Shown: positions 8,260 to 61,599 of the stretch, one piece after another
Layout of the letters: every line of letters starts with the position of its first letter
Position numbering within the stretch: position 1 is the first letter of the stretch
NCBI RefSeq assembly: GCF_964204645.1
Contig: NC_134032.1
Span: forward strand, 13,758,275 to 13,822,274
DNA from: Tubulanus polymorphus
Lineage: Eukaryota; Nemertea; Palaeonemertea; Tubulaniformes; Tubulanidae
DNA: 64,000 nt
Direction: 5' to 3'
Translations under genes and position numbers: made by a program
The notes under the pieces: model-generated
What the model was told of the DNA's origin: nothing
Databases searched by the model: none
The model's input: only the letters and a program-made list of their open reading frames with translations

Positions 8260-11200
8260 TTATGATATCACATCTTTAATCACCCACTCAGCGTTAGGAT
8301 TCACATGGTACAGAGCTAACATTCGTGTTTTATGATGTAAACACCTTTCCCCTAAAAATCATCAATCAAAACAAATAATATGATAAATCGTAGAAATTTC
8401 CCAACGATTTCGATGTTTTTAATTCTCTCAGTGCTGAATAATTAATTCCTGAAAGTCCTGGTGATAATTTGAACATTTAAAAAAATCCCCACCCAAGTGT
8501 GTTGAAAAACGGGAATACTGCTATAGCGCGTCTACACCAAAGCTCGGTGTATCATAAGTTACTAATATTTCACCATTTGATACACCTGCTGCCATCTTTC
8601 AATAGAGACCAAATAAAGATGAAAACTAATTACGAATAACATAAATACACTGCGGTGCAGCGTACTAGCACTATCAAAATCCATCACCAATTTATACACT
8701 GCACTGCAGTGTAGACGCACTGAAAGGGCTATGGTATAAACGATAAAGCGATTGTTACCTATATTTCCACCAATTTCGTATAAATGCGTTAAGTCTTTAG
8801 CGAAACTCGGTCGTCGCGGTCTGACGTTTATTGAGCTGTCAGAATTTGACCGGCTGAAAAATAAAACAATTCATGGACTGTATTTGAGCTGTAAAGTGAA
8901 AGGAAGACTGGGAAGAGGGAGTGAGAGAGAGGCATAGATTGCGTTAGAGATGAACATTGAAAGTAAAGAGAGAGAAAGTGAGGACATAGACTGGGTTAGA
9001 GCTTAAGAGAAAGAGGAAGATAGTGAGAAGAGATGGGAGAATGAGAGGAATAGGAAAGAGGGGTGAGGAGTGAAAGGGGAAGAGAGATTGGAGATAATAG
9101 AGTGTCGAGAAGGAAAGGAGACAGAGAGCAGAAAAAGAGCAGTTGGAAGGGGTTAAGGGCTGGGAAGGGGAGACCAGGTTCAGAGGGGGAGACCAGGAGA
9201 AGTTAAGGGCTGAGAAGGGGAGACCAGGTTCAGAGGGGAGACCAGGAGAGGGTTAAGGGCTGAGAAGGGGGGACCAGATCTAATTCAATAAACTTACGTT
9301 CCAGCACCATTTTGAACTTTCATGAACTGACGGAATTTCACGATGACATCGAAAGCTGTAGTTTTATCATCGATTTGAATCGGTTTGGCAGTTTTACCCG
9401 TCGTCGAGCCGGCATGAGTCGTTACTCGGATTATATTCTTCTGATAATCTTCCTGAAATACACGAACAAACATCAAAAACAAATCAGTAGTATCTGTTTT
9501 ACAGCTATCAATCCGCAGTTCGTATGAACCCCTTCAGTCAAGATCACAATCTTTAAATGAACTGATTGTCTTACTATATTATTAGTCTTCTGTTTTTAAG
9601 CATTTCTATTTAAAAATTACTGTAGATGACTGTATCAGAGTGGCTACTTTTATTTGACTTGCTTTTACCAAATACCAAACCATCACTATTCCCTGACATG
9701 CACATTATTTTCCCAGACATCTGCTTAGAATCCAATCAATTAACACAGTCAAATAAGTAAGACATAGGCGGAAACAGTTTGATTTTAGGCATAAAATTTC
9801 CCTGACTTTTCCCTGATCTTTAACTTTTTAACAAGTTTCCCTGACTTTTCTAAAGAAAAGAAAATTCCTTGACAATTCCCCGACTTTTTGACGAGAAGTA
9901 ATTTCCCTAACTTCTTCTCTGATTTCCAGGAAAGTGGCCATCATGCATCAGACAGAAGATTCATTTTGCGCATAAATCATGATAGACTGAATTTATTTCA
10001 GAAATCATTACCTCATTTAAAATGGCAGTTTTTTTGTAAGCTTCTGATTTGTCTTTTTTCGTCAATAATTTCATAATCTACGAAAAAACAACAATGAAAA
10101 AGTTTCAATTAGAATCATCGCGGGACCGGTTACAGTTAAAGATATATCCCGTAGCGCCGGATTCCCGACCGGAATCTTACCGAACGTGACTTTTTAATTT
10201 GTTCGCTTTCGTACTGATGTCTGATTTGAGTAATCATAAAATATGGAACCTACAACGAAACAAATTCCATCTATCAGTCAAAAGGAAAGAAAAGGCATAA
10301 AGCAGCCATGTCAAAGGCCATAAGCGAGATCCCACTCTCGCTGTTTAGATATATTTGATGAAATATTCCCTTAAAGATGCAAATTCACAGTATGTGTCAA
10401 ATTTGTAGGTTTTCTGTCTTCTGAAGAAAAGAGTAGCCTGAATGGGAATGGGAAGGTAGAGGTTAGGAGCCCTGAGACCACCCCCGAAATCCGCCCCTGG
10501 TATGCTACTTACGGTCCACAGTATATCCTGATATTTAATCAACATCCGGACGATGTTAGCGGTACCGGCGGCCATATTGATTTCGAAATCTTTAATGACG
10601 CTTTTACGATTGCCCTGCGATTGGCTGAGGAATAAGTTCGGAGCGATGATCATCGATACGTTGTTTATGTTCATTTTATTGTTGTCCTCGCAGGCGATCA
10701 CCTCTGCCAGAAACCGTAGCAACAACTGACAACAAATTCAAAAGCATTTCATTAAATTTCGATTCTAAATAAATAGATATTTCAAATACTCAAGATTTTT
10801 CGCGTCAAATCTAGATTAATTCAAAAATCAAGATCCATCAGGTCATTTTCAACGTTCTAACTTTTCAGTCAAATTAATAACCCATCACAAAACATTCAGA
10901 AGTTTAGACTTACTTTAAGCATCTCTTGTTCTGTATTTGGCAGAAGGATTATGAGTAAATTTAGGGCTTTAACTTGTTGTTTCCGGTCTGCTATATCTAC
11001 AAATATAATGAATGCCGTCTTTTAATGTTTCCTGGCACTGAGTATAAGCGAATGCGGTGAGGTACTCCGAGTACTTACTTTCTATCAACGCGAAGGCCTC
11101 GAGGTACTCGTGAGTGAGTAAAGGACTGGGTAATTCTCGTAAGTACTGTTTAAGTATAGCTGCCATGTCGTTAGGATGTACGTTCTCCCAGCTGAATGAA

Positions 11201-14200
11201 CCGGTCTGGAATTTCTCTTCAATATCTGTTCTTAGGGCCTGAAAATAGAATCCAACAGAAAACTGTTAGATGATTGATAGAGAGAAGGGATATTGGAGAA
11301 GGTTCAGGTCCCCCTCATTATTGCAGTGGTCCAGACTGATGAACTCCTAAATTTTTACTTTTTTTCATATCCTTTCAATTGGCTTTTTTCTCACGAAAAA
11401 TACAAGGATCACACATAATTTCAACAGATTTTTTACATTCTACGCAACATTCTTTTATAGATTTTTTCAAAGTAATGTTTATCCCGAGACCCTAAAGCAG
11501 AGTGTAGGATGATGAAGGGGAAATAGGGTAAAAAGAGGGTTTACGTTCACCTTTATTCTGGACGCTGATCCCGGAACCCTGAGCAACCCTTCCTCATGAA
11601 GACACGTGTTCATCAAATTATCAATTATCTGAAACGGACGAAACAATAATCGAAATTTTAGAACGCAACCAATTTTAGAGATGAACGTTAGTTTGGATGA
11701 GACGATATTTGTTTATTACCTGTTTAAAGAATAAAGGCACGCGTAGATTAGGCTGTTTACGGCGGTCCTGCTCCAGCTGTAAACCACACGATACACCAAA
11801 CACTCCTGTATCTACAACAACAAAAAAAATCCTTTTTTAAAATAATGATAGAAATAATCAAACACGTTATACCGTAATCAGAGCGACGAAATTAACCTTT
11901 ATTCTTTTTCTTCGATTTCCTCGCGTAGTAAACGATGTGATGCGAATCGAACACAGCCGTCAATTCAATTAAAGCCAATGATTTTATTCGACACAAATCT
12001 TCATTGCTCAAATCGTTGATTGTCGTACACCCGAGCGGTTCCTCTTTCAATCGAAAAACCTGAATGAAATAAACCATCACACCGTTTTGAAGAGGGGTGG
12101 TAGGGTTAAATGGGGTTTGAACTAATTACTGAGGTCATCGACGATCCACAAGGTGTCGCTAGTGCGCAGTAGGACATCAACTACAGCGGTAATAGAGGAT
12201 TCTATGTGGCAAGTATGGATCCACCAGGTGTCACTCATGTGCAATAGGACATCCAACTACTGCGGCGATAGACGATTCCACTTGTGGCAAGTGAGGATCC
12301 AAAATACAGGTGTCACGTGTAGTCATCCGCATTTCTTCTACTTTTCCATTAAAATTGAATCAAATTTACTCTAGATCTTAAGAATCCAGTCAAAAATTGC
12401 TACAAAATGAACTTATTTAGACCCTTAACGTAAAACTGACTGCGAATCACGCCATCTGGTGGCAGCTACAGCTGGTATTAACCTACCGGTAAATCGCGTG
12501 GTTTTCTATTGCCAAATTCTAGTTTCTGATCGGGAGTAAGGAGGCCGCCGCCCTCGTCGATCTCAAACGATATCTCGTTATCGGTAATCACCGAGGTAAT
12601 CGCCGATATCGAGTATCTATGCGGCGGTTGGTCGCGGTCTACGATCGTTCCCGTTGGTTGAATACTTATAGTCTCTATACCTACAACAATAATAATAGTT
12701 TTTCACAATATAAAATTCTCTCAAAGCTCTTAACAAAATATGGAGAAACATTTAGAATTTCTCTCGAGAAAAAACTATATATTCAATCTCACTGACAAGT
12801 GAATTACCAGGCCTTACTAATAAAATACTTCAACAGTCAAATTCTCGACACAATTGCGCACGAAAAATACACGAAAAAATAAAATTTGGAAGGACAAAGA
12901 TGATGTTTGTCTAAACGTTTTCAAAAAGAAGGACAAAGAAGGACTTGGAAGGTCCGCTGGAAACCCTGAAGAACTTCTCTAAATAATGCTATTTTAACTG
13001 CCATTTCATAAGAAAGGGATACAATACTTTGAGTTTAACTGTACATGTTGATAAGGTAACTAACCAGTAGTTGCTAAGGCCTCCTCTACGACATCGTCGC
13101 CCGTTGCCGTCATGTTGTACTCGGCACGGTTTTTGAAGATGTGCTGACCTTTAGCGCTACCTCTACGCTTGTGTTTAGTTTGATCGGAGTTACGGAGGAA
13201 TTCCGGAGAGACCGGAGCGCTAGCACTGTCTCCCGCTTGCACAGTTCCCTACATTAGAATAAACAATCAACTGTAATATTTTGTAGACCTCCAGGGCCCA
13301 GTTCCATAGACTGAGTATCAAAGTTATCCCTAGTGGTAAATCTTCAATCTGGGCGACAACCACCATAGTAACAATGAGAAACCATGGTTATAACTGACGA
13401 ATTCCAAAATATTCCCAGGGACTATTTTTCTTCCACATCTATGAAACCCAGCCCAGAAGTTGTGAGTAGATACTATATTAAGTAGGCCTACATACATATG
13501 TATGGAGGTAAGAAATTAAGTAACATTTCAGACCTGCAGAGGTTATGAGGTATATACCTCTGGATCAAGGAGGTAATTACCTCAGGAGGTTGTGAGGGTA
13601 GGTTGTGAGAGGTGGTAATTACCTCAGTAGGTTGTAAGGAGGGTAGGTTGTGAAAGGAGGTATTTACCTCAGGAGGTTGTGAGGGTAGGTTGTGAGAGGA
13701 GGAAATAACCTCAGTAGGTTTTAGGGAGGGTAGGTTATGAGATGAGGTATTTACCTCAGGAGGTTGTGAGAAGATGCGCCTCACATCGACGTGTCTTTGG
13801 CGTTTATTTGAGTGAACGACGTGAAGAGTTTCAAAGCGACGTTTAACGGCCTCCGCCTGCTGACGAGTTAGAGACGAGAACTCCTGATTTAAAACTTCAT
13901 CGACGTCGACGACAACTCCACTTTCTATTTCCGACACCAGGTGGCCGTAGCCCGCTTCTTTTAACCATTTAGACTCTTTTTCGCCTTCTACAAACGAAAA
14001 TTTCGTAAGTCAAAAATATGCATCGTCAAATCTACAGCAGCGCCACCTAGTATATGAATATGTAATGCAGGTTCAGACTGGCAGGGAGATCCCACCAAAT
14101 TCCCCTCATACATCCTTGATCCCTCAGGGGCCCTTCTCCAAATCATAAGATATCCTCAACAGGGACTATTCCTTATCACGAGGTTCCTTCCGCAAGATCC

Positions 14201-14519
14201 AGATTCCAAAGAACCAGACACAAAAATTCAAATTCCCTGACTTTTCAAGAAAGAGTCAGAATTCCATGATCTTCCTTGATCTATTAGAGCCTTGTTACCT
14301 GACAGCGCCACCTAGTGTATAACTAAAACTAAAACACGTACCATCGGGAGTTTTTGAGCCGCTCGTTTCTGTATCCTCGTTTTCGTGTTCGACGTCCAGA
14401 CGTCCGTCTGTCAGACAAATACTCCCGCTTCGCTCGATATCTTTAAACTCGTTCCAGAAATCTTCGAGTAAATCTTTCGACGGACTCAAACCGGCCGCAA
14501 GTGTTTTATTGGACGCCAT
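8260..14519 (-). CDS. Rho GTPase-activating protein, ARHGAP18/28/40 (conundrum) family
   Basis: Fifteen coding exons, 5' to 3' on the minus strand: 14519-14342, 13987-13755, 13248-13065, 12680-12487, 12059-11897, 11811-11720, 11628-11551, 11238-11079, 10996-10914, 10725-10513, 10249-10181, 10077-10012, 9452-9298, 8853-8759 and 8351-8260 (stop TAA 8262-8260). All introns are GT-AG, phases join, and the total is 2055 nt or 684 residues, close to human ARHGAP18. The RhoGAP domain spans roughly residues 320-525. The arginine finger lies in GLLRVPG (about Arg365), and KNKM-, IAPNLF- and MAAGTANIVRMLIKYQ-type motifs follow. The C-terminus has LYEIGGNIGERCL and NPNAEWVIK, diagnostic of this subfamily rather than other RhoGAPs. 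The start ATG is the first codon of the acidic N-terminal region. Family members convert RhoA-type GTPases to the GDP form at the cell cortex. Which vertebrate paralogue matches best cannot be told here. Confidence 0.92.
8423..8728. mobile_element. Old copy of TTAA MITE
   Basis: Diverged relative of the 288-bp elements at 39447 and 41264, in the last RhoGAP intron. TTAA precedes it at 8419-8422. It ends CGCACTGAAAGGG, but the 3' flank is CTAT, so the target duplication is lost on that side. The internal GTGTGTTGAA and GTCTACACC segments are recognisable. Confidence 0.7.
9141..9275. repeat. About 50-bp G/A-rich tandem repeat
   Basis: Around three imperfect copies of a unit built from GGGCTGAGAAGGGG and GAGACCAGGTTCAGAGG, in the RhoGAP intron between exons 13 and 14. 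The upstream 8900-9140 is a purine-rich GAGA tract. Confidence 0.8.
12852..12970. repeat. Dispersed foldback repeat F1, copy 3
   Basis: In the RhoGAP intron between exons 3 and 4. It has the same AAGGACAAAGATGATGTTTG core and ends GGTCCGCTGGAAACCCTGA. Confidence 0.55.
13290..13475. repeat. Dispersed repeat F6
   Basis: The RhoGAP intron between exons 2 and 3 holds a segment (CCACCATAGTAACAATGAGA, ATCTGGGCGACAACC) whose reverse complement recurs at about 42570-42670 in SCRIB intron 18. It also contains CCCAGTTCCATAGACTGAG. Unclassified. Confidence 0.5.
13560..13760 (-). repeat. 42/45-bp tandem repeat carrying 5' splice sites
   Basis: Two alternating half-units of 42 and 45 bp begin at the RhoGAP exon 2 donor and extend into the intron. 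On the minus strand each copy reads CCTGAG or ACTGAG followed by GTAAAT, GTAATT or GTTATT. Exon-side last bases fall at 13755 (real), 13710, 13668, 13623 and 13581. Both half-units are multiples of three and contain no stop in the exon's frame, so the reading frame stays open to about 13488. Confidence 0.92.

Positions 14520-61599
<47,080 letters not shown>

Follow-up and report, generated by a model that had tools for sequence, protein, structure and literature searches.

A tandem array of candidate in-frame splice donors at the exon 2 boundary of an ARHGAP18-type RhoGAP gene

Can a tandem repeat that carries copies of an exon end, each with its own splice donor, offer a gene a choice of protein lengths? 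The question is raised by a minus-strand RhoGAP gene of Tubulanus polymorphus, in which a minisatellite meets the putative donor of exon 2; an earlier note on this DNA proposed that five alternative donors, all in frame, could allow both splicing and repeat polymorphism to alter the length of the protein. Here, this proposal is examined in the window, by which we mean the whole stretch of 64,000 bases that was analyzed. Every donor discussed below, 13755 included, is read from the sequence, exon ends being placed by reading frame and donor score.

The host gene appears to be of the ARHGAP18/28/40, or conundrum, type. Hand-joined translations of its exons match the RhoGAP domain in Pfam (Table 1), and further comparisons employed provisional human ARHGAP18 segments; against these, exon 2, in the upstream block near the VR-IF-Q motif, is identical in 28 of 77 columns (36%), and the later exons, joined by hand, show 36% identity over 164 columns. 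The alignment of exon 2 with the provisional segment stops at the last codon before the first donor, where the translation ...VRRIFSQPPE is followed by CTGAG/GTAAAT on the minus, or sense, strand (a slash marks the exon-intron boundary throughout). Between exon 2 and the exons of the RhoGAP domain sit exons 3 to 5 (at least about 60, about 55 and about 54 residues as read), and the array therefore does not lie just upstream of the domain, contrary to what had been claimed. A further donor-like site, GAT/GTGAGG at 13785 (score 7.29), would remove the residues VRRIFSQ if used; it is unlikely to be the real exon end, given that these residues align with the provisional human segment. The same gene holds a second array on the minus strand (9152-9277, period of approximately 50 bp), which starts 21 bp past the inferred donor 9298 and does not carry that donor.

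Table 1. Features of the RhoGAP gene, its tandem array and the candidate donors, in window coordinates.
Feature	Position	Strand	Description
Exon 1, from first ATG	14342..14519	-	Open frame and donor ATG/GTACGT, phase 1; inferred gene model
Exon 2, ended by donor 1	13755..13987	-	GEKESKWLKEAG...VRRIFSQPPE; last 16 bases within array
Tandem array, 2.3 units of 87 bp (45 + 42 bp halves)	13567..13770	-	TRF; straddles exon 2/intron 2 junction
Six self-complementary 14-nt cores	13547..13757	-	GAGGTAATTACCTC type, perfect or imperfect; each with donor or donor-like site
Donor 1, GAG/GTAAAT	13755 (last exon base)	-	Phase 0, score 7.51
Donor 2, GAG/GTTATT	13710	-	Phase 0, weak, score 2.87; 15 extra residues if used
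Donor 3, GAG/GTAAAT	13668	-	Phase 0, score 7.51; 29 extra residues if used
Donor 4, GAG/GTAATT	13623	-	Phase 0, score 7.51; 44 extra residues if used
Donor 5, GAG/GTAATT	13581	-	Phase 0, score 7.51; 58 extra residues if used
Two truncated repeat copies, 23 + 24 bp	13534..13580	-	Homology read by eye
Intron 2, defined by donor 1	13249..13754	-	Acceptor ...TAATGTAG/GGAACTG; putative
Exon 3, phase 0 start	13065..13248	-	Putative
RhoGAP-domain exons	10513..11640	-	Pfam PF00620, E 5.8e-26, hand-joined translations

Re-reading of the sequence, together with TRF (which reports a period of 45 or 87 for the array), confirms that CTGAG/GT recurs at 13755, 13710, 13668, 13623 and 13581, with spacings of 45, 42, 45 and 42 bp. 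The earlier description as a 42/45-bp repeat is thus correct as to spacing, with the refinement that the more recent unit is a dimer of 87 bp. The junctions at 13755, 13668 and 13581 have CCTCCTGAG/GT in common and the internal ones at 13710 and 13623 share CCTACTGAG/GT, and it is this alternation of two junction classes that points to duplication of an older 45/42 pair. The 87-bp copies differ at eight sites, five of them between the 45-bp halves and three between the 42-bp halves. Because the final 16 bases on the exon 2 side already belong to the array, it straddles the junction; the repeat does run into the intron, as had been proposed, but starts ahead of the donor rather than at it. On the intron side, the truncated copies end in donor-like sites at 13558 (score 4.53) and 13534 (4.54), both out of frame. 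At the sensitivity of the search, no second copy of the array was found in the animal's own 268-Mb genome, and queries with exon 2 DNA and with the exon 2 plus repeat protein revealed no second copy of the gene with a different array length. The array and the exact 14-mer palindrome of the cores each occur at a single place in the 268-Mb genome, in a search that may skip very common words, and a dispersed repeat or MITE was accordingly rejected. The notion that the units are tiny introns was set aside, 42-45 nt being probably too short for an intron.

Donor sites were scored with a matrix based on approximate human frequencies rather than trained on this genome, and the scores depend on that matrix. 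The value of 7.51 falls inside the 3.1-11.0 range of the other inferred donors in the window, and of the five alternative donors that had been put forward, all share one phase, but only four have plausible scores, 13710 being weak. The additions that had been calculated for donors 2 to 5 were reproduced, with the frame open and phase 0 throughout. Exon 3 should begin in phase 0 at 13248, and any of the five donors would consequently give an in-frame join, with introns of 332 to 506 nt. Of the six frames over 13770-13567, the sense coding frame is the sole open one. As far as 13581, the copies are spaced by multiples of three, a regularity that the next copy, of 23 bp, breaks; up to that point, the units combine a length divisible by three with an open frame, as in a coding VNTR. 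They also resemble a donor-initiated VNTR, in that the array spans the putative exon donor and its units carry that donor. The anatomy would therefore permit the proposed variable length, with four equal donors and a weak one in one phase, free of stops, in a probable linker region.

How surprising is such an arrangement in this genome? TRF arrays occupy 9,225 of the 64,000 bases of the window (14.4%), and of 27 inferred donors (our own reading of exon ends, a few of which are uncertain), two lie in an array or no more than 50 bp upstream of one, compared to 4.7 expected at random positions. The meeting of an array with a donor is thus unremarkable, and the idea that arrays are gathered at exon ends is unsupported. 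The shared open phase is rarer, and unusual. A phase scan covered 264 kb, composed of the window and 20 additional 10-kb stretches (13 on contig C8, seven on contig C1), and included 46 arrays on both strands, that is, 92 array strands, the RhoGAP array among them, with a donor threshold score of 6. At least three donors were present on 11 of the 92 array strands, and they were all in one phase on a single one of these 11, which is the RhoGAP array with its four donors; at least three same-phase donors within an open frame were found on 2 of the 11. The plus strand of the RhoGAP array carries five donors scoring at least 6, in mixed phases. Among control arrays, a set outside which the RhoGAP array falls with fewer than three copies of 87 bp, the period was divisible by three in 13 of 26, and in 10 of the 20 that measure at least 195 bp; in these 20, open frames numbered 7 of 120, and five arrays had any open frame. 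These rates overstate the surprise, since the finding was picked for precisely this property.

Whether the array is translated was approached through its codons and its substitutions. Codon content is -0.165 bits per codon, which is under all 26 scored exons (minimum, -0.14) and falls among the values of open intron stretches, with 12% of 333 open intron windows scoring higher; the exons that trained the codon model are mostly conserved sequence, and a low-complexity linker could score low regardless. The 333 windows are those open in the given frame among 15,674 overlapping 58-codon windows of intron. This intron-like codon content counts against translation of the array. The 87-bp copies differ by four silent and four replacing changes, a silent excess that is not significant (P = 0.12-0.19), and comparison of the older 45- and 42-bp copies gives one to four silent and four replacing changes in each of four pairings. 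Of the two signatures expected of a coding VNTR, coding-like codons or a silent excess, the array displays neither.

A further property of the repeat is its capacity to fold. The six cores start at 13757, 13712, 13670, 13625, 13583 and 13560, and the 241-nt region that contains them has a fold z of -6.57, none of 200 shuffles being as stable. In the predicted ensemble, cores 4 and 5 pair mostly with each other, as do cores 1 and 6, while core 2 is divided and the pairing of core 3 is split among itself, core 2 and core 6. The predicted cost of opening is 5.54 kcal/mol for 13755 and 5.91, 6.43, 6.58 and 8.22 kcal/mol for donors 2 to 5, and 5.87 and 4.48 kcal/mol for the out-of-frame sites 13558 and 13534, respectively; all of these values come from folding in silico, which ignores proteins and co-transcription. 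Among the 26 other inferred donors, 22 are cheaper to open than 13755, and all 26 are cheaper than 13581. Given that the remaining four are harder to open than 13755, a costly structure does not necessarily silence a donor. The controls weaken the view that structure sets this array apart: the 204-nt TRF array alone, on the sense strand, has a z of -5.58, and of the 70 strands of 35 arrays, 9 fold with a lower z; perfect palindromes of at least 12 nt occur in 5 of 46 arrays, that of the RhoGAP array being the longest at 14 nt. In MAPT exon 10, a hairpin masks a donor by holding it in a short RNA stem; the RhoGAP array differs in that several donors are predicted to be complementary to each other.

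The closest case found is the VNTR in intron 18 of human ABCA7. Its first two bases are those of the exon 18 donor and each 25-bp unit begins with the donor GT (PMC5954066). The isoform that retains one unit is reported at approximately 2 ± 1%, unaffected by VNTR size, as well as frameshifted and subject to decay, and premature-stop transcripts rose under cycloheximide; the effect of length, over approximately 12 to 427 units, consists in skipping of exon 19 (PMC5954066). The two systems are alike in having an array at an exon donor and units that carry the donor, the downstream donor of ABCA7 being used in vivo. They differ in that the 25-bp unit shifts the frame, whereas the RhoGAP units of 45 and 42 bp preserve it and the end of the exon is itself part of the array. 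Because the RhoGAP array keeps the frame, an isoform that retained units would escape frameshift decay, and it is in keeping the frame that this array would be new, downstream use being a prediction. Among the literature matches listed, no donor-initiated VNTR other than that of ABCA7 was recognized from titles and the starts of abstracts.

Taken together, the sequence evidence on the use of downstream donors is evenly balanced, with equal donor scores and a shared open phase arguing in favor of use, and intron-like codons, a silent excess that falls short of significance and the ABCA7 precedent arguing against much use. At one extreme, 13755 would be the sole donor and the open frame a matter of luck, in which case the array would be an ordinary intronic minisatellite and its in-frame spacing would require no special role. 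The codon content, the abundance of arrays in the window, their being no commoner at donors than at random positions, and the frequency of periods divisible by three all agree with such a reading; furthermore, a repeat makes an open frame cheap, and for approximately 15-29 independent codons the chance estimated from the open-window rate (333 of 15,674) is 15-37%. The small number of open frames in control arrays, when here it is the coding frame that is open, and the presence of four donors of equal score are less easily accommodated, and a purely intronic array is considered unlikely, albeit a serious contender. At the other extreme, 13581 would be the usual donor, making exon 2 longer by 174 nt, and alternative splicing would be slight or absent. 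Competition between equal donors is often won by the intron-proximal one, donor 5 scores the same as donor 1, and the end of the multiple-of-three spacing at 13581 is what would be expected if selection on frame stops there. That loss of frame is, however, a single event, and the intron-like codons, the silent share of four changes in eight and the top predicted opening cost at 13581 all speak against an ordinary coding VNTR, which we hold to be unlikely, slightly more so than a purely intronic array.

Structure could itself be the switch, if the donors pair together and copy number decides which of them is free. The stability of the 241-nt fold, the mutual pairing of cores 4-5 and 1-6 and the length of the palindrome are consistent with this, but the control arrays indicate that structure is common in such repeats and the folding is purely computational; a switch of this kind seems very unlikely. 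If each unit is regarded as an exon end, a splice donor and an RNA-pairing core at once, it may be imagined that copy number and pairing would jointly define a graded series of linker lengths from an ezrin-tethered N-terminus to the GAP domain, specific to tissue and individual, a scheme that we judge very improbable.

The explanation that is tentatively preferred, at somewhat less than even confidence, is that 13755 would serve as the main donor and that the downstream donors would be minor in-frame alternatives. It is supported by the equal scores of donors 1, 3, 4 and 5, the single open phase, a predicted opening cost that is lower at 13755 than at donors 2 to 5, and the downstream donor of ABCA7. 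In an animal genome rich in minisatellites, a segment bridging the exon 2/intron 2 boundary would have been duplicated in tandem, as the observed repeat anatomy suggests, to form a minisatellite at one locus; copies of 45/42 bp probably arose first and 87-bp dimers later, and each unit would thereby carry a copy of the donor. Since all spacings are divisible by three and no stop interrupts the exon frame, an encounter of the U1 snRNP with any of the four similar donors would lead to an in-frame mRNA. Low-level use of the downstream donors would then generate minor isoforms with 29-58 extra residues, which would be placed in the linker that joins the N-terminal region to the RhoGAP domain. Pairing between the mutually complementary donor cores is predicted to lower the use of downstream donors most.

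Other known systems share parts of this arrangement. GYNGYN tandem alternative donors likewise place several competing donors at one exon end, and differ in lying only a few bases apart and in not being minisatellite units. Coding VNTRs such as that of PMC1273636 are similar in that a copy number in multiples of three would alter protein length, and different in that the RhoGAP repeat also carries an exon boundary, its inclusion being dependent on splicing. In intron gain through tandem duplication of AGGT (PMC4974935), duplication of an AG/GT segment also provides new donor copies; the RhoGAP array, by contrast, multiplies an existing donor, and no new intron is shown. SR proteins are reported to activate intron-proximal cryptic donors (PMC9177970), which is distinct from the choice between equal donors.

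In human ARHGAP18, an ezrin-binding motif is reported at residues 10-17, a GAP construct covers residues 319-523, and the GAP-only protein was mislocalized (PMC10830128). If the downstream donors of the RhoGAP array are used, the extra 29-58 residues would fall between the positions of these two elements, and, if the ezrin motif is present, would lengthen the tether from targeting motif to GAP domain. One mutable repeat would in that case alter protein length both by splicing and by array length while keeping the frame. It would then parallel the ABCA7 VNTR without shifting the frame, and its competing donors, so nearly alike, would form a natural series on which the choice made by U1 could be tested.

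A number of further observations were made in the window. Two other arrays stand out: 35677-38297 holds approximately 105 copies of a 25-bp unit, whose repetition seems to account for the long open stretches present in all three plus-strand frames (814, 933 and 911 residues), and at 51809-51991 a 22-bp unit is repeated perfectly in tandem (8.3 copies, 100% match), folding being predicted to be very stable on either strand (z of -11.6 and -9.66). On the plus strand, an exon at 557-880 matches flavin-containing amine oxidase (PF01593, E 1.5e-08). Adjoining the RhoGAP gene on the opposite strand, scattered plus-strand exons of a leucine-rich-repeat and PDZ protein extend over 15463-35147 and beyond; from their translations, we take them to resemble Scribble, and the one such exon that was scanned gave a sub-threshold LRR match only. 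An inferred exon of this neighboring gene ends at 31639 on the plus strand in GAG/GTAAAT, identical to donor 1 and also in phase 0 (E/V). Its predicted opening cost, 0.46 kcal/mol, is the lowest of the 27 donors, making it a useful unstructured comparison for 13755.
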